Below, piece by piece: positions 21,201 through 62,449 of a stretch of 64,000 nucleotides of DNA. Origin of the DNA: Temnopleurus reevesii (taxonomy: Eukaryota > Echinodermata > Echinoidea > Temnopleuroida > Temnopleuridae); assembly GCA_036244855.1 (NCBI GenBank), contig BQKZ01000769.1, forward strand, positions 44,298-108,297. Direction: 5' to 3'. The translations under genes were made by a program, and so were the position numbers. Position 1 is the first letter of the stretch; the number at the start of each line of letters is the position of its first letter. The notes beneath the pieces were generated by a model that was not told where the DNA came from, did no database searches, and saw only the letters and a list, made by a program, of their open reading frames with translations.

Positions 21201-24200
21201 ATATCATCTATAGGTAGGATATAGTAAGTAATCAAATAAATAATTAAGTATTTATGTTGAAATGATGTCAAGATTGATATTCGATCCCACTGCTGACACC
21301 AGTTTATCGTATTCTTTTCTTTTTTTTTTTACAAAGAAACGCAGTGTGTTGTCTAAGACTCTGTTTCTTGCATGAGCACTCACTGCTTAGATGCAGGGTA
21401 TTCCACTTTTGTTTAGATTGACACATGTTTTGTAGTGCGATTGGCATGATGACCATTTTTGCTATTACATGTTACTTCTCGACCTCTTTATCACAAATGT
21501 CTTTAAAGTTGCATAAAATTTATTGTATAAAGTATTTTTATGTGGATTATCACTTGACCTGACGCTTCTTTTGACCTACAAAGTAATAACACATTAAAGG
21601 GTATCTAAGCACATGAAATTAACCCAAATTAACCTTATCTGATATGATATGGATTACTAGTTAAGGAGTTAGAAGCAAATAAGCGTCTCATTCACAATCA
21701 ACGCGTGAAGCATAATCCCTATTGAGGCTCCATGCATGGCTTCTTGAATGCCTATGCGATCTTTGTTTGCATGTCCCGATATCTTAAAAGTGTGAGCTGG
21801 CATCGTACAAGTCGTTTTTTTTTTCTTTATTAAATGAGAAACGTTTCATTTTTATATAACATTTTTAAAACTAAACATGTTTTTAATGTCATGGCATGTA
21901 TAGGAGGGGGTGGTTTGTGTATACTACCAACTAGCAAATTATCATTTTTTTCAGCCTCAGATACCTTTTAACTACATTTTATCATTTGGCTGATATCCCA
22001 CTGCTGCCACCCATTATAGTCATGTTCAATTTCAATTTTATTTATTTCATTCAATATGAAAGCAAACATATACAGGATAAAGAATGTATACAATGTAAAA
22101 GAATGAGAAAGACATAAGTCTTTTAAGCTGATGCCATCAAATATAATATGCTTGTCAACATCTTGAAATTGATGTTTTTGTTTCTCCATGTTTCTAATAC
22201 CTAAAGTATATTTATGTGTATTAGGGATGAGACAACAAGAGAAGAAGGAGCAGAGGGGGATGAGGCACTGTCCATTGCCAAGGATACTCTACTACAAGGA
22301 CTATCTGACCAGGACAACTATCTCAGGTACCATTCTCTTTCATTCTCATACAGGAGCCAATTGTTTAATCTTGCCATGAGGATTTTTTTCCTTTCACATT
22401 TGGGGTCTTGTGATTCTTCTGTGAACTTTGCCAGTATTTGATTTGTTCCTATTTCTTGACCATTGGTGCTGTTATAGAGCCTTTTGTCATTCCCATATAT
22501 AGTGTAAGAGATTTACTAACAAATTTCCACTGCTTCCATCAAAATGTTGCAAAATGACAAGAGTTGATGGTACATTTTAAAAGTGTCCCTGTGTTGAATG
22601 ATTTCTTTCAAAGTTAAAGGGGAAGTACACCCAGAAAATAATGTACTGTCAGTAAATGAAGAAAAATCAGATGAACAAACTATGAAAATTTGAGCAAAAT
22701 TGGATAATCCGTTCAAAAGTTATGAATTTTCAAAGTCATCATTTCCACCTNGATGAGACAACAAGAGAAGAAGGAGCAGAGGGGGATGAGGCACTGTCCA
22801 TTGCCAAGGATACTCTACTACAAGGACTATCTGACCAGGACAACTATCTCAGGTACCTTCCTCTTTCTTTCTAATATAGGGGCCAATCTTCTCATCTTTT
22901 GTCAAAATCTGTCCAGCATTAGACTTCTGCTGCTAAATCAATTCATGGCCATTAGTATTTTTAAAATGAGATATTCTCTGAATCCTATATCTGGTAAAAG
23001 ACTAAATTGTTGCAGAATGATGAGAGTTAATGATCAATGTTTCAGTGTATCTGTGTGCACCCTGGAATGATTTTATTAAAGTCTTTTACCAACTAAAGGC
23101 GATAACTATTTCTTTTATGCTTAATTTTTCTATCCTTTCTTTTGCTACACTGTAATTGTTTTGAATTGCTGATTAAATAATGATAACAATAATGAATGTA
23201 TACATGTTAAACTACCTTATTTTTTGCACTCATTTCATTTTCTTGTCCCATTGCATATTAGATTACGAGTGAGTAATTTTTGGAGCCATGAAAGTCGTCT
23301 GCCAGTTGCAACCTTGGATCGGCTAGTCTCCATGTTGGGTTGCATGTACACGCCTGCAACTGAGAGTCGATACCTTGGTTATGCAACAAACCTGCTTCTC
23401 GAAATGACATCGAAGAGCCCAGACTTTGGGAGGAAGATCTTTGAGCATCCCTTATCTGCTTGCAAATTTGAGGTATGAATGTTTTGTTGTTGAATTTATA
23501 TCTTCTCATGTGGGACATACAAACTTTAAATTTTATGAAGTCAATTTTCCATTTGTGATATTAAGCTACATTTATTGTCCTCCAACTATTTATACATGGG
23601 CGATGTTTATTCTATTAGTTTAGGCAAGAAAAAATTGTTTTGATGCACTCTACAAAAAATGATGATTTTTTTTTTTTGCTTTTCCACTTAACGCAAAAAT
23701 TCCTGTAAAATGACAGAGAAAACATGTGAAGTACAAGTTGATAACAAATTTCCAGTGATCACTGGCCTCTTTTAACCTTATTTTACACATGAAATGTGTT
23801 CCCAACTATAAAGAAAAAGAAATTAAAGATATATGTATTTCCAACCAACCAACACTAATATAGAAAAATACCATTAAAAGGTGTCCCCCAAAAAGTTTGG
23901 CCTTATTATATCAGTTAACACAGATTTTGTTCTTATTTTATTCTCCAGGATGTGCAAATTGATCACTCATGGCGCCAACGTCATGCTGCAATATCCACCC
24001 CTAAGTTTGTAGAGACTCAGATGGGTCAGTCCCAGGGGGGTAGTAGGGGATCTCCCTCGTCACAGAGCATGACATCATCAGGGATGAGAATGGATGGGCA
24101 GCTGAGAGCCACACAGGATACAAGACAGTTCACTCCAACTCAAGATGTTGGTGAGTTATTTATGATGATGATGAGGAGGAGCATGATGGTGATGATAATG

Positions 24201-24310
24201 ATGATAATGATGAGAATGATAATGATGATGGAATGATGATGATGAGAATGATGAAGATGATGAAGATGATGATGAGAATGATGATGATGTTGATGGGGAT
24301 GGTGATGATT

Positions 24311-24342
<32 letters not shown>

Positions 24343-24520
24343 GGTGATTATAGTGATCATAATGATGATGATGATGATGATAATGATGATGATGAGAATG
24401 GTGAAGATGATGATGAGAAAGAATGATGATGATGTTGATGGGGATGATGATGATTATGATGATGATGATGATAATGATGATGGCGGTGATGGTGGTGATG
24501 ATGACGACGACGATGATGAA

Positions 24521-24557
<37 letters not shown>

Positions 24558-24600
24558 GTGGTGGTGTTAATGATACTGATGAGGATGATGATGATGATGG

Positions 24601-24639
<39 letters not shown>

Positions 24640-28517: not shown

Positions 28518-29192
28518 TCATTTACTCACCCTTGGTTCACGAACTTCGTCATCTAATCTTGCTTGTAATCGTGGAGCGATTGCTGGCCCATCTGCTCCCT
28601 GTTCATCTTCTGCCAGGTGCTGAGGATTATAAGGCACAAGTAGTGGGATCACCCAAACAGCTTGCCTTGACATGTACTCCTTTCTTGTATTGCTGTCATC
28701 CAGCACTTGGATAAGGGTGGACAAGTAGGTCTTCCACCATTGCTGACTGCCTTCATCATGAAAGAGCATGCTCCAATCTTCGACTCGATCCTCAAGTTTC
28801 TTGAGGTTAATCTTGTCGAAGCTAGGTACCAAGAGTTTAGGCCTCCTTCGTGGGTAGATAGGACGTCCTGATGCACTTTCTTGCCAAATCCCTCTCTCGA
28901 AGTCTTTCCACTCTTGTGCATCATTTCCTTTGTAGGAAGCGATCACTTTACCACCCTCCTTTAGAGTGAAACGATAGTGAAGCGGCTTGGAGTGGCCAGT
29001 GACATTATTTATGTGTGGTGCCATCCAGGACTTCATGTCATAAAGACTGACAATTTCCTCACTATTCGGGAAGAGAGAAAGCAATTGTGGCAATGTTTCT
29101 GCTGCCTTCTTGTGCAGCATCCGTCTCAATTGAGAAAACAACTGATCCACATCCTCATGAGTATGGCCAACCATAAGAAATGAAAGCTGCAC
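28518..29192 (-). CDS. DUF7869-like gene, last recognised exon
   Basis: Acceptor ttttctcag (minus strand). Starts VQLSFLMVGHTHEDVDQ, the family hallmark, then a basic/aromatic C-terminal part including HYRFTLKEGGKVIASYK. Ends at a TGA at 28518-28520. The codons before the stop read AGG|GTGAGT, a good splice donor, so a further exon downstream is possible. Confidence 0.85.
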   Translation of the reverse strand: MQLSFLMVGHTHEDVDQLFSQLRRMLHKKAAETLPQLLSLFPNSEEIVSLYDMKSWMAPHINNVTGHSKPLHYRFTLKEGGKVIASYKGNDAQEWKDFERGIWQESASGRPIYPRRRPKLLVPSFDKINLKKLEDRVEDWSMLFHDEGSQQWWKTYLSTLIQVLDDSNTRKEYMSRQAVWVIPLLVPYNPQHLAEDEQGADGPAIAPRLQARLDDEVREPRVSK

Positions 29193-32100
29193 CTGAGAAA
29201 AAGAATGAGTCCGACATTTATGGTATTAGCTAAATTCTGAGAAAATGAAACCAATTGCATTTCAGGCCAGCCTTCAAAATGTATGTATACCAGAGAGGCC
29301 AAGACTTGAGCATTGTGATTGAGGTTTGTGCTTTTTTGCATTTTCTCATGGTCAAATTTTTGAAAAATTTTTCTCATGCCTCTGGGAACCCGCACCAGGG
29401 ATGCTTACCAAAAATCACATTATTTGTCTAATTTTGTTGGTTTAAGTATATCAAACTCTATAGATGTTAGCACTCATTCAAAACATGAAAATAGCAATGT
29501 GCATCCACCTATAGAACTAGAAACCTTTTATCATCTAACAATACATCAAATATACCATATAATTCTGGTGAATGAAGGACATGAATAGACAATAACCACT
29601 GGACAATTGAGGTACCTGGACAATTGACTGTTTTCCATGGAGACAGGTGTGACGCATTATGGTATGATGAGGGTTCGGCATTCACAGAAATCAAAACGGG
29701 TTAGACCTCCTTCGTGGGTAGGTACATGTACCCCCTTCAGAAGTGAAAATGGATAATTTTTGGTTGGCTTCTCTTCATCATTTATATAATTGCCCTGTGG
29801 GAATCTACATTCATCTCATGCATTTGGGACCCGCCACTGACCCTTGGCATCTCAGGTATACCATTTATTTCTTTGATAGATTTTGAAGATCTACATGCAA
29901 GACAACAATTTATTAAACTACTGTGCACACAAATTTAGGGGCCAGACGATTCGGCTTTACTCAATTATCTCTTTGCAATCACATGGCATTGAAGGCTAAA
30001 GTTGTCCCAGAACCAAATTAACTACTTCTTTTGTCAACCTTTCGGGGTGTGGTATTTACCAATTACAGCCTTGTTTAGATTTCTGATTCTCTGTTTCTTC
30101 AAAAACAATCAATATTGCAGTCAAATAAATCCTAATATAGTGTTGCCATTGTTTCTTTGAAATTCCAGGATTTTTTGTACCCTGCACACTGTATAGTTTG
30201 AAACACGGATTTTCATGTTTCGAGAAGGATATTGCAAAAACTGTGTAAAAACATGATTCTATGGGAAGTTATCTTCAAAAAAAGACATATTTGAGCACTT
30301 ATAGGCCAATTTTATTTTTTGGGGTTCAGGACCACTTGCTGTGGAATGGCCCATGTACTTAATTCTTTCAACAGCTAATGCTATATAGAAATGTTACAAA
30401 ATGATTATTTTAATGCGTATGTAAAATTTGAGCAAAATCGGATAATCCGTTATGAATTTTCAAGTTGTCATTTCCATCTGTGCTGGGCATCCTTGAATTG
30501 GCAACATATAGCCCATTAGCATATTCTGTGATGTCATACATGGAGAACTCCTCATTCACTTTCAGTTTGAATATAAGTTTATTGAAAATGGATCAATATC
30601 AAATTTCAAATGAGGAATCAACACTGTTCTTTCTGGAATGTTTGCAGAATTGATGTGACAATAACGTATCTAATCGAAAAAAAAAACCCCACTAAATTCT
30701 GTCTTATTTTCTGGAAAAAGAGGACATTGTGAAATTTTGTCTACAAATTGAATGGAGAGTTCTCCATGTTGGCAGCCATTTTGTGGCTGAACGTTTGCCA
30801 ATTTACGGAGCCCATGAGGGGTGTGAATCTAAACTTTGAAAATTCATAGCTTTTGAATGGATTGTCGGATTTTGCTCAAATTTTCACAGTTTGTTCGTTG
30901 GATTTGTCTTAATGTCTGGGTGAAGTTCCCCTTTAAACTGAGTCTAGTTCAAAATGTTACAATAATTATCACATATAAATTATCACATATAAATTACAGG
31001 TTTCTGATGTCTCATAATAACATCCAGTTTCAACTCTCTTTTACAACAGAGCCATTCTTGACCTTTTAGACGGTCCTATTGAATTATTTTCGGTACAAAC
31101 TGTCCAAAGTTTTGAATATAGCTCTTTGTTAAAGGTATACTTATAGACCACTATTGGTCAGTATAAAAAATGAGCATGAAATGAACTCAAGTATTCATAA
31201 CTTCATTTACAGGCATGGGGATAGCTTTGTACAAAATGTGGATATAATTCCTTTACATAAGAGGAATTTTCTATGGAATCATGTACGTGCTTACCGGTAC
31301 ATTGTGTCACGTTTCCGCTGTGTTCCCATGGGCAAATGAAATCCTATTGACTTTGTGTGTGAGATTTTTGTATTGGCAATAATGTTGACACGTAGTGTTT
31401 TCTATCATTTGCAATAACCATTTGCAGGTTGATTTAATCCATATAAAATTTGAGTATACTCTAAATTTGCTATTGGAAAACAATAGGATATGAATAATAT
31501 CACTGTAGCTCATGAAGTAATTAAATATCTGAAGCGCCACCTTTCCCAATACTAGTCTATATGTTTACACTTAAATTTTTCAGTTGTCATCAAGACCAGT
31601 GATTTTCACTATTTCTACCGAATAATTAAATAAATAATTCAATGATTCTTACCTCATGAAATATCTTCTTTCCTACAAGCATCTCACAAAAGGCCATGAC
31701 ATACTTATTTTTATTCTCCCGCCAGCAGTTGTCGGCTTGAAGGTACAAGATTGGTGGAAGAGGTTGGCCCTATATTTCAAGAAAATATATTACGTATTAC
31801 ACATCATTTGCTTTAATGTAAAGGGTTGATAATGCACTGCTTCTGATACCCTATTCATATTGGTTTTCAAATTTATCCCGCTGCTGTCGCGGGAAGGCAA
31901 CATCGCTATAACCCCGCTATAAATGCATTCACAGTGGAAAAGTTATCCCACTTCTGTCGCGGGATAAATATCATGTACCCATTCATAATGCGGCGAGTGA
32001 TTTTTACGACCTTCGTAACAAAACACGTGTTGGCTTGATCCTCGATCAGTATTTCTTTTTTTTTATTATTTGAAAAAATAATAGTTTTTCAAGAAAAAAA

Positions 32101-39300: not shown

Positions 39301-42300
39301 TTTTCCCCCAAACATAATTTGTATACTATTTACTTCTGTACAAAAAAAAAAAATCCATTTTCGGGATAATTATGAGGTTGATCACTATAATATATATTTG
39401 TTCAAATGGCTGCAGCAAAAAATGATATATACACAGGCGCACACAAATTTGGTTTCCATAGTTGCGCCAAAGTGCGGAATACTCCAAAGATAAATTCATA
39501 GAACGTCCTGACGAGAGCATGCTGCATTGCAGAAATATAGTATACATATGTATGTTATCTACACATTCCCTCTGTAACTATCTAAATTTGCAGACTTTTG
39601 AACTAGATTTTCCAAATGAATTGTAATTTGCAATATAATGCAGGTGTATTTAGCCTACTTCAGAGGGAAAGCAAGCCCTGGGATTATCATGCTTTCAATG
39701 AATGAAGACAAATCTGATGAACAAACTTAAAACTTAGCAAAATCTTTTCTTTTCTTCATTTTAGAATAATGAATAAATATGGTTCTTTTTCAAAATTCAC
39801 GCAAAATTGATAAAGGCATGGAAACAAGCAAAAGCAACATTTTGTTGACTTTTCTGTATAAAGGAATTAAAGAAACATGAAATTTTGAGTACTGAGTGAA
39901 TGGGGAGTTGTCCCCGGATACAGATTCTGCCAACGTTGCAGGGCACACCGATCCCATCAGCGACAGGGATCATGATGTTATTGAGAATTACAAAATTCCT
40001 AACTTTTGAACAGATTGTCAAATTTTGCTTGAATTTTCAATTTGTTCATCTGATTTTTCTTCATTTATTGAATGTATGATAATCCCAGGGCTTGCTTCCC
40101 CTATTAACGTCTAGAGTATATAGCTCAAGCAAAGCCTGTTTTAAGAAGAAAGAATTTGAGAAATTTGTCTGTCCAATCATCATTTTTTTTTCGTCTGATG
40201 ATTTATAAGTAAAGAGCAAAAAACAGGGATTTGTGTGTTCTGATTTCGGTTTCTATACTGTAGTTTCGTGATAATTTACCACTCCCCCAAATATGCCTAA
40301 ATATTCTAAAAGAATAACTTCCTAAATTGCATGATGGATCCACAAAGCCATGTGTAACAAGATATTTATGCTAAATATATGTAGACCTACCATGTGTATC
40401 CAAAAAAGGCTTATAAATACAATACAGTATAATTAATGCACACACAAATTCAACTTCTTTGTAACGAACAGAAAGCCCATAATCCTGACGAAAGAATTTT
40501 TTAAAATGATTTATGTTTAGACGAATAATGCTAATTTTTTATAAAATCAGTCAAAATAATGTTGCGCCCAAATTGGGGTAATCATCTGTCAAAGTCTGGT
40601 ACGACGAGACTCGTCAGTGGAGAACAATTGAGGGTCCTGACAATCAATTGTTCTCCACCGTCGAGTGCCAGACTTCGACAGAAGATTACCCCAATATCGG
40701 TGCAACAACATTTTGACTGATTTGACGAAAATGAGCATTATTCAGTCAAACATGAATCATTTAAAAAAAAACTCTTATATCATATGAATGCAGGGATTAT
40801 GGACTTTCTGTTTAAAACAAAGAAGCTGAATATATGTGCATAAAATTGCATATATTAACCATATAAAAAGTGAAAAGTTTTTTGTTATACACACGGTATA
40901 GAGATATGAATGAATTTGACAAGGTACCTAACCCTAAATTGTTTTCAAAATAGAGTTTTCTGTCATGGGCAAACATTTATTACCAGGAAGAAAACACTTT
41001 ATCAATCATATTCAATTTTAATAAGAGGACGCATTAAACATCATCCTAATAGATTAGAATATCCCACCAATAGATTTTGTAGGTATCTTGATAAGATATA
41101 TTTTTATTTTTCACTCCCTCTTCTCACTCATAAATTTTCAATGCATATGTATTCTCTAAATATACATCTTCCTATTCTGTCAACTATAATGTTTTCAGTA
41201 AATCTAATGTTCAGTGTTTGAGGCATATCTCAAGCTCTCTGCTGTCTGAATCATAAGACTATTTAATAAATGCATTTGTGCATGATGTATACTCACATTT
41301 GGTGTTCGTTATGTTGCTTCATTGCAGCTTTGATTTTGCTTCTCTTCCTCTGGTTGAGTTCTTCATCTAATCTTCTCTGAAGCACAACACATTTCTGACA
41401 CTTTGAGAAGTCACCACACTATTGACGAACAGACAAGAAATATAATTAGAATGTTGGCAAAATTAGATTTGTTTTTAGCCTCTCGCTATACAATATTCCA
41501 CAGACTCCAACTAAAAACAAACAACAAGATAATGCATTTCATACCACAACACAATTTGAAAAGGATCATGCACAAACTCATTTGGATCTGAGATGTGACT
41601 CCAATTAATTTTAAAATAAATTCTGAGTTTCATTTCTTTTAAATGATAAACATGTCATAAATACATGTAGTGTTGTAGGACTGCTCTCATAAGTTTAATG
41701 TTAATTACTTTTAATTTCTGTAACACACTCTCCGTTCACAAATATAAAGGTACGAGAGTATAAACCGCAAGATTTGTAATTGACTTTTTACCAGTTTTTT
41801 CATGCGAAATCTTAAAAATGTAATCATTCATTGTAATAAAAATCTTTACAGGTTGATTACCATCAATTATTATTCATTATTCATTATTTTAATAATTGAT
41901 CAATCCATTCAGGCTTGTATCCAATCAAATCCATAGTTTAACAAAGTGACTACAATAGATCAAAACCTGGTTTTGCAGCTTTTGCATCTGTACATGTTAG
42001 TACTTCAAATGGAATTACTGAGCTGTGAAATAACGTCTGGAAACAAATGAGGTGTCATTCTTTAGCTAATAAAACATTGTTTTTAGTGATATAGTTCTTG
42101 TTTGATTAATAGGCTGTTGGACTTGTCAGCTATTGGACTCATGGGATGACCCCCATTTATTTCAGTAATGCAATGATTTAATATCACTCAAATTCATTTT
42201 CAAAGTCATTTGATGCATGCAGCCATCATACTAGCAGGCTAGATATAAAATGTTCACGTACCTTTTTGATTTTCACATGGTCAAAGTGGTTGGTCCAAAG

Positions 42301-43260
42301 GTTGTAAAACATAGAAATTCCAACTGTTGGTTGCCATGACTCTGCCATCTCTTCCTGATATTGCTTATAAATATCATTTTTTGATAGTCCATAAGGTAGG
42401 CGAAATTCATCTTTGTGAGGCATGGTGTCACCTCTTTTTGTTATATATTCCTCAAGCCAATTGATGCAGGCAACGGTAGCTATAGATCTGTTCCTATGCT
42501 TTGCCTGGGGAGAAGCAGAAATGCTTGGAAGACGACACACACGGGATTTCATGTTGAAATACTGGGCTCGACTCAATCCGAGGCATGTATAGAATGCCAC
42601 TGGACAAAGTGCCGCTCCATTAGGAAAACGTAGCTGTTTAGTTCCAACACGAGAGGAGCTAAACAGGTTGTGAAACCACTGTTTCCTCTCCTGAGGAGAT
42701 TTGCCCCAATACATTCTCCTTACAGCTTTGATATCACATCCTGATACTTTTTTCGTGCAAGATTTTGGACACTTACAACGAAAGTTCAAAGTCTTCTTGA
42801 TATCTGACCTTCTGATTTTTTTTAAGTACATTTTATTATTCTTCTTTGACATTTTTGCCCGAGCATGACATACACGTGCAGTAACATTCGTAGAAGGCAT
42901 CATGCTTTCTTCAACGTACTCATCATCACTGGAAATTAATTGATTCAGAGAATCATCACTGCTGTCGAGGCTACTTTCAGACTCACTAAGCAGAATTGGT
43001 GATAACTCACGGGACTGATCTTCATTATCGCTAGCTTGGTCAAAGTCATACACAGAAGATGCGTCTTTTTTAGATTTATTTTTGTTAGGTGTACTCCAAG
43101 CTATAGCTACTGGAGCCTGTGGAGGTACTGTTATTAGTTCTGCATCATCGATGCTGAGTTGTGAAATATCATGTATGAAATCTGCACTAAAGTCCAAATC
43201 AGCATCATCCAACGATAAGTTGCTGATGTCTCCTTCAGCATGGTCTAATATTCCAGCCAT
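28518..43260 (-). CDS. Uncharacterised DUF7869-like protein gene, six exons
   Basis: Order on the minus strand: 43260-42262, 41418-41297, 38112-37979, 35516-35361, 34333-34217 (or its copy 31769-31653), 29192-28518; about 2.2 kb coding. The N-terminus is acidic and Ser-rich, followed by a Cys-rich CRC-like segment (FRCKCPKSCTKKVSGCD), a CxxC pair (KCQKC), then VIIDGMDQNK, HGHDSNMTINIL, LQADNCWRENKN and LMVGHTHEDVDQLFS. These ordered motifs are typical of a large invertebrate family that I believe is called DUF7869; the number should be checked. Function is unknown. The conserved acidic residues suggest an RNase H/DDE-like fold (inference). Exon 2 ends in phase 2 but exon 3 needs phase 1, so a small exon between them is probably missed. 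A donor-like gtgagt overlaps the stop. Confidence 0.8.
30125..30350. repeat. Dispersed repeat, also at 47390-47625
   Basis: Shares aaagacatatttgagcac and ttttggggttcaggacca with the second copy. Origin unknown. Confidence 0.7.
30415..30935. mobile_element. MITE of the 'aaggggaagt' family, left end lost
   Basis: From ttgagcaaaatcggataat to tgaagttcccctttaaa, homologous to 45312-45907. Its right end is the start of the duplicated 1.1 kb block. Confidence 0.85.
30909..32003. repeat. 1.1 kb block, copy 1 of a near-identical pair
   Basis: Matches 33473-34567 at a constant offset of 2,564 bases with only a few differences noticed (for example actgag/acggag, tctagt/tctcgt, cataatg/catactg). It contains a complete exon of the DUF7869-like gene with both splice sites. 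Confidence 0.95.
31653..31769 (-). CDS. DUF7869-like gene, QADN exon, copy nearer the last exon
   Basis: Identical in sequence to the exon at 34217-34333: GQPLPPILYLQADNCW ... ENKNKYVMAF. 117 nt, phase 0 both ends, so using one or both copies keeps the frame. May be a haplotype artefact. Confidence 0.6.
31847..32482. mobile_element. DNA element with taccc.attcatattgg termini
   Basis: Left taccctattcatattgg, right ccaatatgaatggggta. The interior is rich in the word tcgcggga/tcccgcgac and agcggagttatagcgg. The left part recurs at 34411 in the second copy of the 1.1 kb block and then diverges. Confidence 0.82.
33298..33326. repeat. (TA)n microsatellite after an A run
   Basis: Simple AT dinucleotide run, 48 bases before the single N at 33374. 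Confidence 0.95.
33374..33374. other. Single-N contig join before the second 1.1 kb copy
   Basis: The N lies 99 bases before the second copy of the block, which points to joined contigs or haplotypes. Confidence 0.75.
33473..34567. repeat. 1.1 kb block, copy 2
   Basis: Near-identical to 30909-32003. It begins with the right end of the same MITE (gaagttcccctttaaac) without the rest of that MITE, and ends inside the taccctattcat element, after which the two copies differ completely. Confidence 0.95.
34217..34333 (-). CDS. DUF7869-like gene, QADN exon, copy next to exon 4
   Basis: Acceptor gaaatatag, donor GAG|gtaaga on the minus strand. Encodes LQADNCWRENKN followed by KYVMAFCEMLVGKKIF, a core motif of the family. 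117 nt, phase 0. Confidence 0.85.
35361..35516 (-). CDS. DUF7869-like gene, fourth exon
   Basis: Acceptor acttgcag, donor AAG|gtaggt. TDLLKTHVTGVLLHGQ and HGHDSNMTINILMKTL are typical family blocks. 156 nt, phase 0. Confidence 0.85.
36080..36218. repeat. Retroelement-like end at the edge of the gap
   Basis: (TATTG)n, then tttatttatttaatcacgg and words around cagctaaaagctgctttt, as in other element ends of this window. Cut by the gap. Confidence 0.45.
36219..37070. other. Assembly gap, 852 N
   Basis: N run in the intron between the third and fourth recognised exons of the DUF7869-like gene. Frames crossing it are artefacts. Confidence 1.
37979..38112 (-). CDS. DUF7869-like gene, third recognised exon
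   Basis: Acceptor caatacag, donor AAG|gtatga. Contains IIPKYLSVIIDGMDQNKT, the first acidic motif of the family core. Starts in a phase that does not follow from exon 2, so a small exon is probably missing between 38113 and 41296, or another acceptor is used. Confidence 0.8.
38678..39251. mobile_element. MITE with gaaggggaagttcacccca termini
   Basis: Left gaaggggaagttcacccc, right ggggtgggatttcccttt. Interior words tgatgtcat and ttaaccaattttgataatt recur in partial copies near 46330-46500 and 61020-61130. Confidence 0.85.
39664..40102. mobile_element. MITE with gcaagccctgggatta termini
   Basis: Left gggaaagcaagccctgggat, right atcccagggcttgcttccc. Subterminal gaagacaaatctgatgaac and ttcatctgatttttcttc show kinship with the 'aaggggaagt' MITEs. 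Confidence 0.88.
40437..40842. mobile_element. Foldback element with about 200-base arms
   Basis: The two halves are an inverted repeat (attggggtaatc ... gattaccccaat; gtggagaacaattg ... caattgttctccac) around a short loop near 40641. No coding capacity. Confidence 0.9.
41297..41418 (-). CDS. DUF7869-like gene, second exon
   Basis: Acceptor tcaatag, donor AT|gtgagt. CGDFSKCQKCVVLQRR then a basic helix with NQRKRSKIKAAMKQHN: a Cys-pair plus basic segment as usual in this family. 122 nt. Confidence 0.8.
42262..43260 (-). CDS. DUF7869-like gene, first coding exon
   Basis: Starts at an ATG at 43260 reading MAGILDHAEGDISNLSLDDA; donor AAG|gtacgt. Residues about 1-130 are acidic and low-complexity, with many DD/SS pairs. 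Then a Lys-rich stretch, FRCKCPKSCTKKVSGCD, and a helical part with CPVAFYTCLGLSRAQYF and WLEEYITKRGD. 333 codons, phase 0. No core promoter motif could be assigned upstream. Confidence 0.85.
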
Positions 43261-51510: not shown

Positions 51511-54500
51511 GTAAGAATACAGGCTTAATGCATACTTACTTTCTTTTCTGCATAATTGTCAGTTTAGATCTACTCAATTCTCATTGTTCAAATTAATCCA
51601 CTTATTTTAGCTCCAGTTTATTGGATATTCGATTTATCATGCTAAATTTGAAAGAATAAATTTATCAAAGGTTTATCTGGTTTATCACATTCACATGCTG
51701 TATATATATAGTTAATGTAACATCATTAGGTTGAGAATTTTATTGGCCAAGTTTGGCAACCCCCACAATAGAACATTAAACGTATTGTACAGATAATGAA
51801 AAATTACAAATATTTTTGCCCTTCAAATATTGTTATTTATTGTGTTGTTCTCATTAGTTTTCACCATTAATCTGGTTTCCCTCCCTGTTTCTCTCTATTT
51901 TATCCACTGTTCCACTTCTTATAAAAACAACAAAATTTACCAATTTTCATGCATGCTATTCTTCTTATGTTATTAATGAGCAGATCCTATCCTTACAATT
52001 AATATGAACATGTTTATGGCCACCTTGCAAAAAAATACATATCATTGACTGAAAATATCCCAATGTGCTAACAAAATAGAAGCTTACCCCAAATTATAAA
52101 TTTAGTCAAAGTTACTTTTCTTGAAAATAATCCCAATCCATTGTGACTTCGGAAAAGTGTTTGTACACTCACACTTAACACAATTTTATTGGATCATGTT
52201 TATTTTATTACACATGTTTGCCAGTGAAGTGATAAACATTACCTGTAAATTTTGTTTAAAAAAATGAAATTATAGGCATATGTTTTCTTACACACATCTA
52301 GATGAAGCTGAATGTTTAGTCTGTCAGTTTAGTCTTTTACAATTAAACTTGAGTTGACTATATATATTTATATTTGCACACATCATATGGTCAACTTCAT
52401 TCACTTTTCATGGTCGGGGTGGTCACATTCCTTCCGCAAAGGTGTTTGGAGTCTACCCTGATCACAAAGTAACGTAACTACACTGTAGAAGAAACCGGAG
52501 AAAGAATTTTAAATAAAAAAAATTACATTACACCTCTTCTTTGTACTGAATTACTCCTGTAGGTATCCAGAGGAAATTGTGGACACCATGACCACGTCCA
52601 TTAAATGGTGGCTTGACGAAGTGAATGGGAAGCGTGTTATACAACGAATAAAGAATGGATCCCACCTGACACTAGAGATTCAAGAACTAAAACCAGGAGT
52701 AACAAGTAGTGATATCAAGGTAAATTAAACATGTCCCATCATTATCCAGAATTTCTGGTTCTTATATTTCAAAGTTTGGCATTCATAATTTTCTTCTCAG
52801 TTGTAGGAGATTCCTCTAACTTTTTTTTCTGTTCATCTAACATGTCTAACAATACATTATTTTGGGGCAGACTCTTCTTTTAAGCCCTTGATTTAATTTA
52901 TCAGTGTAATGAAATGCTGTACTTCATACAACTAATATGAATGGAATTTTGTGCATCATGCGTGATAATAATGTTTTTTTTTTATCGGGTACAGTCTGAC
53001 AAGCTGCCACGCTGACCTTTTAAATAATTTAGTCCGACAGTTCATTATATATATAACAACGCCTATAAGTGCGACAAAACGTAAATTTTGCAAACAAGAA
53101 TGACTTTGGGTGAAACTACTGTATAAATCTGACAATTTGTTTTTAAGTTCACAAGTTAGTTGTCTTTAAGTCAGACAGTTTATTGAATTTGCGCACTACT
53201 CTAACAATTGAATGGCACCGCACAGTGTATATTATGAATGTTTAAATATGTAGATAGCAACTGAAGATGTCATAAATGCACAAATAACCATTTATTGTAT
53301 ATCAATGCTATTAATGATCTTTTCCCCTAAAATTTACACTCCTTAAAACTTTAACTAGAATATCTTCATGGTAGATTGTGTAGTAGATCCCTATTTCTAT
53401 GTTTACATAAATTTATTCAAACTTCAAATCTTTCTGTCGATATTTTGAAAAATAAGAATTTATGATTCAATATTTATAATTGGGTCATAACATGTGTGTA
53501 TGAGATATTATGAAACTCAATCAATTAAGAGCATCATATATAGTTGCTAATAGTAGCCAGAAGTCAAAATTTAAGTCATAGTAAATAAGTTGTAAGAGGT
53601 TATGAAAAGAATATCTTGATTCTTCATTTTTGTGTAGTGTGGTAAATCATTCCAGTGTCTAGCTCCAACAAATGATATTCAGAATTAACTGTGTTATTTT
53701 ACACTAGGGCACACAAAGTTTTCGATTCTCTTTCCCCCTTGTTCCATACTAGTGCTCTATAATTTGACAATAGTCTGTTAAGGAATGAGTTTGAAAATCT
53801 GTAAAGCATGAAAATATGTTAGGACTTGCTAAATCATGTAAGTTATAAATGTTAGGGATTTTCAGTTTTATGATTTTAGGATTGGAATGGGTCATCCATG
53901 AGCTATTTGGTAATTACTCCCAGTATAAAATAAGCAGATCAAAGAGTCCCATGCAAATAAGTTTCTCTTGGCCATTGCTTATTCTTGATTTAATTTTTAA
54001 AGAATTTATTCAAAGTTTTGTTTATCTTATTCATTTCTATGTTGATGATACTATATAATTTCATTAAATAACAATCTCCCTATATGTATTCCCAAAATGA
54101 AAACACATTTTTTCAGACAACTCGGCCAAGATTACCAAAAGAACCATCATCAAATAATTTAACTAATAAATCATTCATTCGATCGATCTTCCTCTGAAAA
54201 TAGTGTGCAACCAACCAATCAATAAACGAAGCAACAAATCAATAAGTAAAATAAAAAAATAATATAACAAATTCAACAATCTCTTGTGTTTTCAATAATC
54301 AGGTTCAATGAACATTTTCAATCAGTTGTTAAGTGGACGAGCAGAAGGTGTGATTAATGATCCCTCATGTAACTTGAAAGGCCTGTCATTAAGTTTCATC
54401 CATGCCTTAACAAATTAGATTACTAAAACTAAATTCATAACTGAGGGACTTTTCTATCAATGGGTTCAATTATAAAGAGGGCTCATTTTGGCACAAGGTT

Positions 54501-57271
54501 TTTTTTATATACCATTGACATAAGCAGTCTGTACGTGAATAAAAATTAATGCTCTAACAGGCACTTGATAGATGGTGCTCTGGAGTGTATCTAAAAAAGG
54601 GAGAAATATTCATTATATTTTGAATTTCATTATGTTTTTATTGATAGTGTTGTTTATTAATACACTCTATATATCATAGGATTGGATAATGCAGTACATG
54701 CACAATATAAACAAAATACCGGTAAATGAATAGTAGTGCACCCATATAATATTGGCAACATGACTGGAAATTTTTAACCATTTTTTATGGACTCATTAAA
54801 AACTCCACAACCTTGTTCATTAGTCGTCTGATTTTCCCCATTTTTTATGTCTATTTTTATTAATTTTTTTAATTAAATTTTTTTTTTTTTGGCTGACCAA
54901 TTTTTTTTATACTTCTGCTTTAAAGAAATATCGTTCTTGGGTAATTCTCTCTTCAGTTTCAAAATAAGTTGTTAAAAATATTCTTATATAAACGGATTTG
55001 AATCAGTGCTTTCCAATATGCAAATGCAAAGTGAGGAGGTATGGCAGTGCAGGAGTAAATCCCCTTCAAAACCCATCACCATAGTATGTTCTCGACTTTG
55101 ATTTATTAGTTTTGATTTTCACACAGTACCCAGACCCATCTGGAACACAGAAAATCCCTTGTTTTTTATCAGAGTGGGTATTTTATTAACAAGGGAGTAA
55201 TTGACTACTTGCTGATAAGTTTATGTTGAGCCACTGCTGCAACTGAATGTTTATTGTGAGGTCCAGTGAAGCATGACCCTGTTCATGATTGAAGTGTCCA
55301 TGACTGTAGTGTATTTTATTATCTTTGCTCTCCACTCTCCCATCTCTAAACCTTTCATTCTACCCCTCTATTTCTCTCTCTATCACAATTCTCTCCATCA
55401 TTAGGCCCCCCCCCAAAAAAAAAGTATGGTTGTCCTCCACCATAGACCCACCTTGCCTCCACTGACTGACCCTCAGAAAATGACCAGACCTAAACTTTTT
55501 TTTTCTTTCTTTTCTTTTCACTGAAATGAAGAAAAAAAAAATCACTGTAAAATGATAGCAAAACAAATGAAAATCAACCTGAAAATAATTTTCATACCAA
55601 AATCATAGCAAAACCAATGAAATAATGCATGAACATTTTTTTAGATGTTCTTTGTGTTTTTTCACTCCCTTCCTAGTCTATTTTCAGATGAAATGTGTTA
55701 AAAAAATGTTTAAAAACTTTTTCCGACGGACCGACCGACCCTATTTAAAAAAAAATCCATTCTTGGGCAACCAAACATTATTTTTGGGGCCTTATTATTC
55801 AACTCCAGTACTTATGTTATTCATGTTAACTTGCCAGTTTGTGGTGTTTTCAGCAGTTTTATTTGTCATTGGTTTATATTGATGTAAGTATGATTTTACT
55901 CACCATTCTGAAGATTTGATAGCTTCCAATGCATTAAAATTGAACAGTGTGAAGCACTCTAGTGTGATAAGCCTTTAAATAAAATTGTTTGGTTCACCCT
56001 TTCAAGTCAAAAGAACAAATTTTATTTCAACCTCTTCTGGTCATACCAAATACCCATAAATAAACAAATCTTGTCAAAATTGCTTATCGATATGTAAGCA
56101 TGTAGGCCTATATGGTAGATTTATTTATATTCCACAAAATATAAGAGTACTAAAATATGAATGAATAAACGCAAGTTATATGTCAAAATATTCATCTGTA
56201 CTGCAGTTGAATTTTCAGAAAATGTTTTTAAAAATCCCAATTTCATGTTCATTGGAGAGTAATGTACCTCAGATCAACTGTCATTATTGAAGAAAAAAAA
56301 GATTTTGCATACATGTCTGACTTTTGAATTGAATTGTTAACGAAACAAAACAACAAAAACAACAACAAAAAAAAACTGCTTGAAATCTGAAAGTGTTACA
56401 TTGAATAAATGAAGATTTTTTGTATTACTTCAACATCCAGGTGAAGACCTTACACCCACACTTTGGTGTGATTGAAAAACCATTCAAACTCAGCGATTTC
56501 CAGTGGAAGGAGAATGAACTTTCGAGCAAGATGTCAAACTTTGTTGGCAATGGCCAACAATTTATTGAGAGATGGCAGCATCTTGCAGTTTCCAGCAAGG
56601 ATGACAGAGCTAAAGGTACATGTAAGTGCATTCTCACTTTTATTAAAATGATGAATATATACATGTAAAGTATGCTGCATAGTAGATTACTTGAATTTTG
56701 TGAGATATTTAATTGTTTTAAAAGAATTTCAGGAAATCAAAAATGTCTTTTGTTGGCTTCTTATATATTATCCAAGTCACTCTCATCTGCAAATCACTTT
56801 ATCATTCTCTTTCTATTATGTCTTTGTTTATTAACTTTGGCGCGTTATACCCCTATTCAACAGTTGGTTGATTCCTCGCTATCTCCTAGTTCCTCTTGTT
56901 CTTCCTTCTCATTCTTGTTTAATTAATATCAAGTACAACATAATGTGCATTCGGCCGGCGCGCGCCGCGGCGGTGTAAACAGGAGCTATATTATTTAGGT
57001 TACACCAAAAAAATTGTAGACCTCGGTCCGGACCTGGGTCGCTTAGAACGAAGGGATCTGGGCAGGTTGTGGTCCGTTCGCTGTTTACACCAAGATTTTG
57101 TGACTCTGAATTGACCCTAAAGCGACCTCGGTCTGCAAATTTTTCGATGTAACAGGGGTCATAGTCTGAATGCAAGCCTGCTTTGTTATTCACGTTTTTA
57201 CTGCAGTAGAGGTTAATCTTTTTATTTATTTGCGCACGCATGTGTATGTGTGTCTGTGTGTGTATGTGCGC

Positions 57272-57316
<45 letters not shown>

Positions 57317-60300
57317 AAGTTTTAAGGTTCAGGGCAAGTAACACCAATATAAGAAAAATGGCCTAATACAAGAACATAACAATTGATTATTTGATTGAAA
57401 ACATACCATGTTTTATGTGAATATCATTTTCTACTTTTACAAAAATATAATTAATTAAATTTGATTTTTGTTACATTTAGTTCCTGATGAACAGTGTTCA
57501 GCTACAGAGGCTGATGACAATCTATTCTCTGATGGATGTAACAAGGATGATATCAAAAGAAAGCAAGTCAAAATAGGTAATATTTCTATTACAATGATAA
57601 TTATGGAATACCAGGGAAAAAAATAAATTCATGGTTGTATATGCGCAGACTTTCATAGCCTTAAATCATGGATCTTTTTAAAATCCATGCTTAAATGGTA
57701 TCTCCACAACAAAAATATCTTGCGTTGATTAAATTTTGCAGAACAGTAGAAAAAAAAATAACAAAGCGGACTATATAAATAAGAAGTTTATGAATGTAAA
57801 GCGCCTTGAGCACTCAGCAATGAGAGTGGATACGTGTGCTATATAAATTGCATATATTATTTTTATATTATCATATTTACAAGACATTTTCCAGCAAAAA
57901 CATTAACAAGACAAATGTTTATTCAAACAGTTATATAATGAAAAAATTAGCAGCTTTGAGTCAGATGTAATGACGTAGGCCTACTGATGACATATTTCCT
58001 ACAATCAGCTTATCAAAGTTAAACCGACCCATGGAATTATCGTGGAATTAGTGAATGAAGAAAAGTCAGATGAACAAACTGTGAAAATTTGATATCAATG
58101 ATATCATGATCCCCGCCACTCATGGGCTATGTGTGCTTGGCACAGTTCGTGGGATTCTGTGACGTCATGTCGGACAATGATTGTCCTGGGGATGTTTTGT
58201 CCTAGGGGGTAGTCGTCCTAGGGAGGATTGTCCAGGGGCTAATTGTCCTAGGGGATTGATTGTATTAGATGATTGTCCCCGGGGGGGGGGGTAGTTGTCC
58301 TTCTGGGTAAGCCCTACGGGGTAGTTGCCCTTGGGGGTAATTGTCCTAGGGGTAGTTGTCCTAGGAGAGTAGTTGTCCAGTTGTCCAGGGGTGATTGTCT
58401 GGGGTGGTTGTCGTGATATGAAAATGTACAATATTTTGTTGGTGACTAACGTACCCATTTCCCTCCATAAAGTAGACTACCATGTTATGGCATGCCTTTT
58501 CATTACGGCAAATATTGTAACGCTCTCTTTGCTGATACAATGATACAGCAAATACCAGTAATACAGTCTAACCTCGTTATAACGAGGTCGTTGGGACCAG
58601 AGGATTTACCTCTTTATATTGAAACCTTGTTATATCAGGGTCAAAATACAATAAAATACAAAGAGATGGGACCAGGAAAATTACCTTGTTATAACGAGAG
58701 CTCGTTATATCAGTGCTCGTTATAATGAGGTTTGACTGTACTATGACAGAGTCTGAAAGAGGAAGAATGATATAAAGAATTGACAAAGTGACGAGGCACA
58801 TAAGTTTGAAAATACAGGTAGCATGCACATGCAATTTTGTAATTTGGAACCAGATGCATCTCCTGCCAATCCTCCCAACCGACAATGGACAATATCAATT
58901 ATGATATCACAATAGCAAGGATATCAAGCTTGGCACTGGAGAAAGTTTTAATTTCCACATGACAAGATAGAAATAAGCATAATGGCAAATATTCAGTGAG
59001 GGAAAATGATTGAACATTGCATCTTTTTATTTGACAGGTGACAGCTACACAGTTGAGGTGCCATTGCGGTTACTCTCCTCTCCAGCTCCTCAGCGTGCAG
59101 TCAGAGCACTGAATGATGCTCATATTAAAGAGCTTATTCAGTCCTACAAAAGGATGGAGGGGAATATGCTCCCTACCATGTGTGTACATATTCCAAACAA
59201 TCTTCCTCAACATATCAATCAGAGGGATATTTTTAATGGAAGGTACACCATGGAAGTTCTGGGGGGAAACCATTCCCGCCAAGCTCTGTTGGAGCTCAGT
59301 TTTGATGACAACGTTCCAGTTGTCATCTACGCTGGGCTCACGAATCTTCAGGCTCACTTCTTGGGATATGAGCACAACAGAAAGCATGAGAACAACCGAA
59401 TTATGACTTTTCATGAGGATGTACAGCTATTTCGGAAACACCTTGTTGGAGATCCAGATCAGGAACTTTCAATAAATCAGAGAACGAAATGGAGGAAGAC
59501 GATGTCTCAAATTCTAGGAATAGATGTGAGTATAATGTATTAAATCATAAATTATCTTGCAAAAAAGTATTTCATATAGTAAAGATTAGGTATCTTTGAG
59601 ATGCATCCGCAAGATAGGTTTCATTGAGAAAGCTCTACAGGGCCCAATTCCTGTCCAATCACTATCAAAATTGGTATCGAATTGTATTATCCCCCCCCCC
59701 CAAAAAAAAAGAAAGAAATTGTTTGGTTGCCCTCCACTTACCGATCCTCTGATAATGGCCCAACGTCACGGTGATCTTTTTCTTAATTAAGATTGAAATT
59801 CACAGTAAAATTAGACATAAACATGTGAAATAAAATCTGGAAAGTCATTTTCATAGATTTTTTTGCAAGTGAATTGTGCGAGTTCTGTTAAAAAAAATTA
59901 ATTACAAAAATTTCCCCCGACCAGTGCTTTTTTTAAATGGTGTTGGAGGGCAATACAACAATTTCTCCTCTTTATTTTTTGCCTTGCGGCGAGGACTAAC
60001 CGTACAAACTTTAGTATGGGCGGAGTCACTCTTGCCATGGTAACCACGGTGTATAAAGAATATAAATATGGAGGTGTATTATGGGGAGAACACTAAGTCA
60101 TTTGATATTGGTGTGGGTGTAATCATTGTTTCCATGGTATTGTAAAATTTTCAATAAATTGCTGTCATTTGATTTTCTGTAAATGTACATGTATGTTTGT
60201 GTCCAAACTAGACCCACATAGTCATAATATAATACAACAAATTCATCATGATGTGGTTATAAGGTCATAGGTAACTCGCGGGATCAAATTCAGATATAAG

Positions 60301-62449
60301 TCCCGAATGCGATGCTCAAACTGAGAAAAATGGGGTTTAAGTCATGAAGGTTAAAAAATATCAAAAAATTTATTTCTACCTAAATAGGTTCTTTACTATC
60401 CATCTATCATATGTGATAAATGTAAGAAAAAAAATTTCACACAAGAAAATTGTTAAAATACGGTTTTTCAAAGACGGTTTTTCTTTGGCCTGAACAGGTT
60501 TTGAGCAATTGAATTTGCCGCGTGCGCTACATTTGAGTGAACGCTGTGAAAGGACACGTATTGAATGAACATAAAAGCGATGTCTAACTTCCGACTCAAT
60601 TTTCTTGTTAATTTATTTTCCTAAAACAGTACAGATGTTCTCATTAAATCAACAATAAATCTGCAATGGCTTAATTATATATATTGTGCTATACATCAAA
60701 TTAAAGCTTGAATTATGGAAAAAAAGGGTAGTATGGATAACTCAATTAAAAAAAATTGCGACTCATGTCTGAATTTGATGTGACGGGTCACATATACAAG
60801 TTAGAATATTGAATAGCTGTATTTACTTCAGTGGCTTAAATATTCTTTTACTTATAATCTTGGGTCAATACTTTTATGCATATTGATGATGTGAAAGGTT
60901 ATTTAGGTATCAACATTTCAATATTGTAGCTTTCATTTGTTTATTTCTGTATGAGTTGTGTCCATCCACATGTAGTACATTTATACATACAGAAAAAATT
61001 GGCGAGCAGAACAAAAAAAAAAGAATTGAGGAAAATCGGACAACTATAACAAATCGGTGAAGATTTTCAGAAATGTTGCCAATTTGATGATGTCATGAGT
61101 GCACAACTAACCACTCATTCTATTTATATTTATAGTGTAAAATTTGCCATTTTTACAGTACAAATTTTGTATTAATGTAAAAATGTATATCGGGGAGCTA
61201 TAGCTCCCCGATTTGCATGCTTGATTTCCTCAAAACTTTAACTATAGAATATCATTATTATTATATCATTAAGTAAGACTCTTCATTTAACCCTCAGTAG
61301 CCCCCGCTCCCTTCCCAGACAAATTTCGCAATTATTTCACTGTGCAAATTTTCAGAGCTTGCGACTCACTAACTTTTTTTAAAAGGAGAATTACATCCAC
61401 ACATTAATGCTTGGTCAGCAAATTCACAAAAATAAGATGAACAAAATGAAAATTTTAGCAACATAGGGAATCCGTTTGAAAGCTATGAATTTTTAAAGCT
61501 ATCGTTTTCATCTGTATGGGCATCGTTGGCATTATAGGTGTATTATGGGAAGATGACGCCACCAATTGATTGATGTGGGTGGAGTCACCATTGCCATGGT
61601 AATCATGACTTAAAGAAATAGTTAATATTCTTGTCTGATCACTTTCAAATTTGGAATGGAGTGTTACTATGAAGAGATGGGAGGCCTGTTGATAAATGGG
61701 TGGAATCACCGTTGCCATGCTAACTTTGATATAAAGAAATAGCAAGAGTTTCACTAAATTGGTGTCATTTCTCTGTTCATGTAGGCATACATGTTTATCA
61801 ATTGTGTATAAACTATGGTCATAAGATAAAATATTTCATACTTTGATGATGAATTTAAAGGCCATCCAGGGGTCAGAAGGTCAAGTACCATAGTGCTTAT
61901 TTCCTTATGTGGTTTGGTTTATATGAAAAACAGTTAAGGTATTTATTTATTTATTTATTTATTAGTGTTAATCTTCAACAGCCGAGAAATGAGGAAGGGA
62001 CCTGCGCTCTGAAAACTCCCGACATTCCCCAGGCCTAGTTAGGGTTAAGAAGGACATCTTCTATTATTTCATTTTTTACAAGTTGTTTTTCTTTCCTTTC
62101 CTTTTCATTTCTGGAAGGGAGAGGTGGGGAGTTGAAAAAGATTATGTTTCAGAGATCTGCCCCATTAGTAAGGTGTTTATTTAATTTTGGTTCATTATTC
62201 CTTTGAATAGGTGAAAGCAGTACGCGACAAATACAGAAGGCATTCTTGGCTGGCAAGCCAGCCTAATAATATATGGAGCCTTCTCAAAAGGGTTATGACA
62301 GCTTATGAGGCAAAGTCCCTAAAAGGACAAAGGGGAGACATCCTGAAAGCGCACCATTTTGCATTTCTCGAGAAGCTGAAAAGTCAACAGGAAATTCAAG
62401 ACATATTGTTGAAACTTCTGAACAAAGAGATGTCTTTTCAAAATCTAAG
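51405..62449 (+). CDS. ParB/Spo0J-like protein gene of an animal, partial, six exons
   Basis: Exons 51405-51510 (tentative), 52563-52719, 56441-56621, 57481-57576, 59038-59525 and 62211-62449 join in phase; the last ends in phase 2, so the gene continues past the window. The N-terminal part (W-rich, WWLDEVNGKRVIQRI) is unfamiliar. Exon 5 looks like a ParB/sulfiredoxin N-domain: VEVPLRLLSSPAPQRA, LNDAHIKELIQSYK, a GGNHSRQAL box in place of GERRxRA, PVVIYAG, and YEHNRKHENNR in place of the ENLQR box. Then MSQILGIDVKAVRDKY resembles the ParB helix-turn-helix, and LLNKEMSFQNLR the 'GLSVRE' segment. In bacteria ParB binds centromere-like DNA and hydrolyses CTP; the role here is unknown. Introns exclude bacterial contamination. 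Confidence 0.75.
52563..52719 (+). CDS. ParB-like gene, exon 2
   Basis: Acceptor actcctgtag, donor AAG|gtaaat. Reads YPEEIVDTMTTSIKWWLDEV and GSHLTLEIQELKPG. No family recognised for this part. Confidence 0.7.
52985..53225. repeat. 'agtccgacagtt' dispersed repeat, copy 2
   Basis: tttagtccgacagttcatt and gtgcgacaaaacgtaaatt match 50035-50400 with many differences. Lies in intron 2 of the ParB-like gene. Confidence 0.7.
53226..55419. other. Intron sequence, nothing recognisable
   Basis: AT-rich sequence with T runs near 54870-54910. No exon, repeat family or RNA gene recognised. Confidence 0.5.
55420..55790. mobile_element. MITE related to 50738-50945
   Basis: Left tatggttgtcctccacca, interior actgaccctcagaaaatga, right ttcttgggcaaccaaac. 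Longer than its relatives because of internal A/T-rich duplication. Confidence 0.75.
56441..56621 (+). CDS. ParB-like gene, exon 3
   Basis: Acceptor caacatccag, donor ACAT|gtaagt. Reads VKTLHPHFGVIEKPFKL then FVGNGQQFIERWQHLAV. The gtaagt donor is chosen over an earlier gtacat because it keeps the frame into exon 4. Confidence 0.75.
57240..57312. repeat. (GT)n(GA)n microsatellite
   Basis: gtgtgt with a few changes, then gagaga; intronic. Confidence 0.95.
57481..57576 (+). CDS. ParB-like gene, exon 4
   Basis: Acceptor ttacatttag, donor G|gtaata. Acidic linker CSATEADDNLFSDGCNKDD then a basic KRKQVKIG. Probably a flexible linker before the ParB-like domain. Confidence 0.7.
   Translation, partial: FLMNSVQLQRLMTIYSLMDVTRMISKESKSK
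57620..57870 (+). mobile_element. LINE 3' end
   Basis: Contains a broken RT tail (SLKSW then LKSMLKWYLHN) and the typical end gcgccttgagcactcag ... gctatataaattg. Intronic. Confidence 0.7.
58180..58412. repeat. Minisatellite of 'ttgtcctaggggtag' units
   Basis: Roughly 15-base G-rich units repeated more than ten times with variations, including a run of ten G at about 58278. Intronic. Confidence 0.9.
58562..58740. mobile_element. MITE with cctcgttataacgag termini
   Basis: Left tacagtctaacctcgttata, right tataatgaggtttgactgta, with internal repeats of gttatatcag. This is a widespread animal pogo/Tigger-type MITE, flanked by TA. Confidence 0.9.
59038..59525 (+). CDS. ParB-like gene, exon 5: ParB/Srx-like domain
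   Basis: Acceptor tttgacag, donor GAT|gtgagt. In order: VEVPLRLLSSPAPQRA, LNDAHIKELIQSYK, a variable stretch, LGGNHSRQALLEL, VPVVIYAG, YEHNRKHENNR, FHEDVQLFRKHLVGD and WRKTMSQILGID. The order and spacing fit ParB N-terminal boxes. The usual GERR of box I is GNHSR here, so nucleotide chemistry may differ. Confidence 0.85.
59710..59968. mobile_element. MITE related to 50738-50945
   Basis: Left attgtttggttgccctcca and right tggagggcaatacaacaat; a C run and A run precede it. Confidence 0.75.
59985..60150. repeat. Fragment of the 'gttgccatggtaacc' repeat family
   Basis: Contains gggcggagtcactcttgc and catggtaaccacggtg, as in the units of 11659-12108. Confidence 0.65.
61520..61790. repeat. Two units of the 'gttgccatggtaacc' repeat family
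   Basis: gtggagtcaccattgccatg and gtggaatcaccgttgccatg mark two tandem units related to 11659-12108. A fragment of the 'aaggggaa' MITE lies just before, at about 61380-61510. Confidence 0.75.
62211..62449 (+). CDS. ParB-like gene, exon 6: HTH-like and C-terminal ParB-like segment
   Basis: Acceptor tttgaatag, donor AG|gtatgt. Starts VKAVRDKYRRHSWLA, completing the helix-turn-helix-like stretch begun in exon 5. Then HHFAFLEKLKSQQEIQ and LLNKEMSFQNLR, which have the pattern of the ParB segment 'ALL.L....Q...A..I...GLSVRE'. Confidence 0.8.

Follow-up and report, generated by a model that had tools for sequence, protein, structure and literature searches.

The DNA of interest is a 64,000-nucleotide stretch of contig BQKZ01000769.1 from the sea urchin Temnopleurus reevesii (hereafter, the window; C769:44298–108297 of a 558-Mb assembly, with the contig end 7.2 kb beyond). 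It contains a spliced, forward-strand gene whose core is almost certainly a divergent N-terminal domain (N-domain) of the ParB/sulfiredoxin (Srx) superfamily. Our overall reading, to which we assign a probability of roughly 0.5, is that it is a member of an animal, probably echinoderm, gene family that combines (i) this divergent N-domain, (ii) a ParB-like helix-turn-helix (HTH) position, (iii) extra N-terminal exons, and (iv) candidate downstream exons, and that its product acts as a nuclear DNA-binding protein. Four exons were found in the window:

52563–52719, + strand: exon A, 157 nt; without a recognised domain; in frame with exon B
56441–56615, + strand: exon B, 175 nt; likewise without a recognised domain; in frame when joined
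59038–59525, + strand: exon C, 488 nt; covers the ParB/Srx-like N-domain and opens the HTH-like segment (first half), as judged from relatives and profile comparison, with the fold from relative P0007
62211–62449, + strand: exon D, 239 nt; completes the HTH-like segment with its second half (VKAVRDKYR, 62211–62237) and covers the stretch beyond

All four are bordered by an AG acceptor and a GT donor. When joined, exons A–D read through 352 codons without a stop in one frame, with many stops in the other two. Exon C lies inside the longest stop-to-stop frame listed for 51–64 kb (177 amino acids, aa) and, because both single-sequence and profile searches return relatives, is by this measure coding. 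An earlier note on this DNA had numbered the exons in 52563–62449 up to six; if exons C and D are its "exons 5-6", two earlier exons are unaccounted for. The sequence blocks that it named are present in the order given: VEVPLRLLSS, IKELIQSYK, LGGNHSRQALLEL, PVVIYAG and YEHNRKHENNR all lie within 59038–59525, the HTH-like block SQILGID|VKAVRDKY spans the 59525/62211 junction, and LLNKEMSFQNLR follows at the end of 62211–62449.

Used as a single query against a large protein collection, exon C returned two relatives (E 1.1e-37 and 2.2e-34). A profile built from a three-row alignment matched 12 proteins, 10 of them new (E of the new ones 3.6e-51 to 1.6e-10), and the joined exon A–D protein as query found no homolog. 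One of the 12 is named: P0008, the uncharacterized protein LOC121431894 of Lytechinus variegatus. Its alignment starts midway through exon C and carries on into exon D (96/160 identical), with two single-residue gaps, both away from the junction. Since P0008 runs across the junction without a gap, it supports the C/D splice as an independent annotated gene-model counterpart in a sea urchin; the joining of the two domain exons proposed in the earlier note is upheld, as is its description of a spliced animal gene, by the splice sites, the L. variegatus gene model and an intron position common to the paralogs. The longest contig is 6583 for both P0002 and P0004, and 28404 for both P0009 and P0011, which suggests that each pair represents local duplicated copies in another genome. 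Four alignments of the family are referred to below: A2 (without P0004, P0009 and P0011), A3 (all 12 profile-matched proteins and exon C), A4 (without P0004, P0009, P0011, P0001 and P0002), and the ten-row A5 (without P0002, P0004, P0008, P0009, P0011 and paralog L010).

Standard family searches fail to recognise this divergent ParB-like form. Pfam gave no match to exons C and D (for exon C, this includes ParB_N, PF02195, a comparison that the earlier note had proposed) and one sub-threshold match to the joined protein, located in exons C–D and to an unrelated family. An exon-by-exon search of the whole genome found neither PF02195, which the same search detects in 11 of 14 control genomes, nor sulfiredoxin; five Pfam families are listed for the ten A2 sequences, and PF02195 is not one of them. 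NCBIfam returned unrelated weak matches only, and sequence searches of the PDB were empty for the joined protein and for A2; A5 drew two weak matches there, both unrelated. In a PHROG search at E up to 10, A2 members matched ParB-like partition families: phrog_723 (5/10 members; best E 0.0061), phrog_620 (3/10; 0.019), phrog_1033 (2/10; 0.0045), and phrog_930 (1/10; 0.34). Their other weak PHROG matches are not ParB, and include a DNA methyltransferase, a nuclease, a virion protein and unnamed families. Neither Pfam nor PHROG returned a ParB-named match for paralogs L009, L010 and L011.

The ParB/Srx fold is borne out by two lines of evidence. Firstly, profile comparisons were made with an alignment of four ParB/Spo0J, one Noc and one RepB sequences, after tails judged to be intron read-through had been trimmed by script. 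The first comparison was colinear and weak (P 0.022; under other column settings P 0.079 and 0.055, with 7 and 8 of 200 shuffles reaching the score). After two paralogs from the same genome were added, and with P0008 restored to the A5 set, the second comparison gave P 0.00048 over 135 columns, a score of 31.0 (the highest among 300 column shuffles was 22.2), and an hhalign probability of 32%. The match does not stop at the end of the minimal sulfiredoxin domain but takes in the positions of Box III and the HTH as well. Secondly, a good structure model was obtained for relative P0007 from A3 (a first model, from three rows, was of poor quality). It has the alpha/beta fold of the ParB/Srx superfamily, and in the structure comparison suggested in the earlier note the top-ranked solved structures are ParB with a cytidine triphosphate (CTP) analogue or cytidine diphosphate (CDP) and, in a further comparison, Noc on DNA. 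Structures of Srx, a serine kinase and SbnI also match, and the score drops sharply after the ParB/Srx rows.

The HTH-like segment is less certain than the fold, and its first half was placed as follows:

59499–59525, + strand: HTH-like segment, first half (TMSQILGID); register from the profile comparisons and an HTH score test

In the profile comparison, TMSQILGID|VKAVRDKYR sits at the place and in the register of the ParB HTH, and in the L. variegatus protein the segment scores highest by far (8.7 vs -1.3 for the next position). Two results weigh against our overall reading. In the window protein, the segment ranks only sixth of 423, and the highest score anywhere in that protein is attained in 69% of 2000 shuffles, which is not significant; and the structure model, which covers the first half of the segment only, ends inside the HTH with low confidence there. 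Because of this model ending, our estimates were lowered slightly, both for the HTH, which we still consider somewhat likely to be real, and for the overall reading (from 0.55 to 0.5). The earlier note's claim of an N-domain plus HTH layout beyond Srx thus holds for the reach of the profile match, and less firmly for the HTH itself.

Three elements of the ParB nucleotide pocket can be aligned:

59121–59174, + strand: Box I/C-motif-like helix and loop (HIKELIQSYKRMEGNMLP), which the profile comparisons set against the helix and G..QP loop of ParB
59262–59279, + strand: altered P motif (Box II), GGNHSR where ParB has GERR; G76, N77 and H78 invariant in A5
59370–59381, + strand: altered Box III, EHNR where ParB has ENxxR; Asn invariant in A4 and A5

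The canonical GxxR (GERR) P motif is absent: its position reads G-N-H-S/T in 10/10 A5 rows, with an arginine one place later in nine of them (not L011). The EN of Box III aligns with His-Asn (His112-Asn113), in which the Asn is invariant and the His nearly so. Since the changed residues are themselves conserved, the pocket is, on this pattern, remodelled and not merely eroded. The earlier note had labelled GNHSR as Box I; in current usage, motifs of the GERRxRA type are called the P motif (Box II), GxxR, whose Arg-to-Ala mutant serves as the negative control for nucleoside triphosphate (NTP) binding (passages of PMC12704722). The GxxR arginine is replaced in the urchin protein; in the true Box I (C motif), the loop still looks ParB-like (GNMLP vs GVLQP).

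The gene probably continues beyond the window into the adjoining part of the contig (L002, from C769:108298 on), where additional candidate exons lead to a stop:

L002:1183–1462: candidate coiled-coil-like exon; frame continues from exon D
L002:1558–1623: candidate short terminal exon (route 1), after a 95-base intron; phases fit
L002:3110–3277: candidate acidic exon (route 2); phases fit
L002:3966–4280: candidate last exon with stop (route 2); phases fit

Counted from the start of exon A, the predicted length is 467 residues by route 1 (short exon) and 606 by route 2 (acidic exon). By eye, the candidate last exon reads like an SH3/Tudor-type segment; Pfam assigns it no family. No relative was found that confirms the candidate L002 exons, and the 5' end of the gene was not found.

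We put the chance that the product is a DNA-binding nuclear protein at about even. The predicted protein would act in the nucleus, bound to DNA through its HTH, while the N-domain and the candidate coiled coil would pair two subunits. The remodelled pocket (Gly-Asn-His-Ser/Thr-Arg and His-Asn) would support non-canonical nucleotide binding, or act as an interaction surface only. With canonical ParB/Spo0J/Noc, the urchin gene shares the N-domain fold and the order of Boxes I, II and III followed by the HTH-like segment; it differs in having GNHS/T for GERR and HN for EN, a longer stretch from the Box I loop to the P motif, a spliced gene, and a different C-terminal part. Structure alignments with the N-domains of KorB and a pNOB8-like ParB (8qa9, 5k5d), the latter of which we take to be archaeal, reach the last residue of the model. 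Identity is only 11–13%, however, with root-mean-square deviations of 4.3 and 4.7, the urchin model ends inside the HTH-like segment, and an operator or centromere is not known for the urchin gene.

The gene could instead encode a superfamily enzyme (a sulfiredoxin, a serine kinase, or a DndB/GmrS-like NTPase or nuclease), possibly one that defends against foreign DNA. The DndB profile (PF14072) is matched by P0007 (20.1 bits, E 3.7e-4) and by P0005 (14.4 bits), both under its gathering score of 29.1. The G-N-H of the P motif resembles the G-Q-H of DGQHR, a motif of the DndB group (passages of PMC4619093), the Srx, serine-kinase and SbnI structures match the model, and a catalytic role is conceivable for Asn77-His78, which is invariant, and for the nearly invariant His112-Asn113. 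On the other hand, compared with the DndB/DGQHR/GmrS (DUF262) group, the DGQHR arginine is replaced by Ser/Thr and the exons scanned hold no Pfam nuclease domain. The sulfiredoxin motif F[GS]GCHR carries a cysteine (passages of PMC4619093 and PMC9925728); the position of this cysteine (FGGCHR) is Asn77 in all ten A5 rows, and the urchin protein, unlike Srx, extends into the Box III and HTH positions. The HTH-like segment and candidate coiled coil also suggest DNA binding over a small enzyme. We consider an enzyme unlikely.

A true ParB-type clamp, that is, a nucleotide-gated DNA clamp sliding in animal nuclei, is improbable. Its altered pocket (GNHS/T-R and HN) would bind a nucleotide, perhaps not CTP, and its HTH would load the dimer at specific chromosomal sites, from which it would spread on chromatin. 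Such a protein would fit the colinear profile match from N-domain into HTH position, the top-ranked ParB and Noc structures, and the retained Box I loop and Box III Asn. It sits poorly with the replacement of the GxxR arginine by Ser/Thr, the very residue mutated in the no-NTP-binding control (passages of PMC12704722), and with the change of the Box III Glu to His; further, a ParB-type C-terminal dimerisation domain was not identified and the ParA-binding motif [LFI]G[KR]G[LFI] was not found in exons A–E, the gene's 5' end excluded. With the arginine replaced and no ParA-binding motif in exons A–E, the partition-type clamp of the earlier note is not supported.

Whether exon C or P0010 was the query, protein searches led to the same four places in the genome: the present gene (C769), C2901, C8238 and C4035. 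The three other places are 25–44% identical; C4035 scores only E 0.23 and 0.10, and its membership rests on the alignment. A DNA search of the genome found a single copy. The P motif reads GGNHT in C2901 and DGNHS in C4035, and both of these paralogs have an apparent intron donor following the ParB-like domain, C2901 at the position seen in the window gene and C4035 no more than one codon away. Paralogs this diverged, with an intron position in common, suggest an old family of animal genes and not a recent insertion or contamination. By eye, paralog L011:1075–1875 has an IIDGNHSVLA domain in one frame with an upstream QFVQKWN, resembling the exon B end QQFIERWQ. A third paralog frame, L010:1366–1701 (- strand), lacks a GGNHT motif where the frame starts, and is possibly a decayed copy or a split exon.

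It is similarly improbable that the gene encodes a DNA-binding subunit of a mobile element, or its domesticated remnant. In prokaryotes, ParB-fold orphans are often tied to mobile elements (PMC12704722), the shared longest contig (6583) of P0002 and P0004 suggests local copies, and the window contains a DUF7869 frame and another intronless frame (below). Set against these are the single copy by DNA search, the only three, diverged, other places by protein search, the multi-exon structure with its shared intron position, and the failure to find a viral, phage or plasmid sequence relative. A phage DNA search with exon C found no relative, pattern matches in viral contigs were not confirmed by tblastn, and prokaryote genome contigs gave none in the searches run. 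Phage and plasmid tblastn with P0007 returned 20 and 9 records (E 0.8 to 7), taken as chance; their features are nuclease, exonuclease, Mre11, repair protein, metallophosphatase, glycosyltransferase and hypothetical. One viral-contig pattern match, L007, was rejected since its frames were judged unrelated by eye. For the ancient transfer or mobile origin raised in the earlier note, the searches run thus gave no viral, phage, plasmid or prokaryote sequence relative, though the family may still stem from an ancient transfer.

Chance resemblance or artefactual exon joining is very improbable: the window sequence alone lacks a family match, bar one sub-threshold Pfam match, but the profile search added relatives with E values starting at 3.6e-51, the L. 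variegatus protein spans the exon junction, and the scores of the fold comparison fall off steeply once the ParB/Srx structures end.

According to a 2025 survey of the ParB fold, sulfiredoxin is its commonest eukaryotic representative, and EukProt proteomes were searched with PF02195 and TIGR00180 at gathering cut-offs (PMC12704722). That method would probably have missed the urchin family, because PF02195 matches none of the sequences tested here. No animal ParB protein other than sulfiredoxin was found in the parts of the open-licence PMC literature consulted, including passages of PMC12704722, PMC4619093, PMC11662687, PMC10853773, PMC3710099 and PMC9925728. An animal ParB N-domain that runs into the HTH position makes the existence of nucleotide-switched DNA clamps in animals directly testable, and the P motif, altered yet conserved, offers a natural experiment in the nucleotide specificity of the fold.

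Elsewhere in the window, six frames in 773–24233 (+ strand) match Pfam DNA-PKcs families (DNAPKcs_CC1-2, CC3, CC5), five of the six over cut-off; a search of the window and L002 for the DNA-PKcs kinase motif found none. The assembly may split a DNA-PKcs gene; the ParB-like gene may sit beside the DNA-PKcs span or inside it. A 235-aa frame at 28518–29225 (- strand) matches DUF7869 (8.6e-30) and is presumably a mobile-element-type gene. At 42226–43260 (- strand), a 344-aa frame with a Met start, an acidic N-terminus and a Cys-containing middle has no Pfam match, and looks like a transposon-type gene. Finally, a long simple repeat at 24140–24778 gives rise to low-complexity long frames on both strands.
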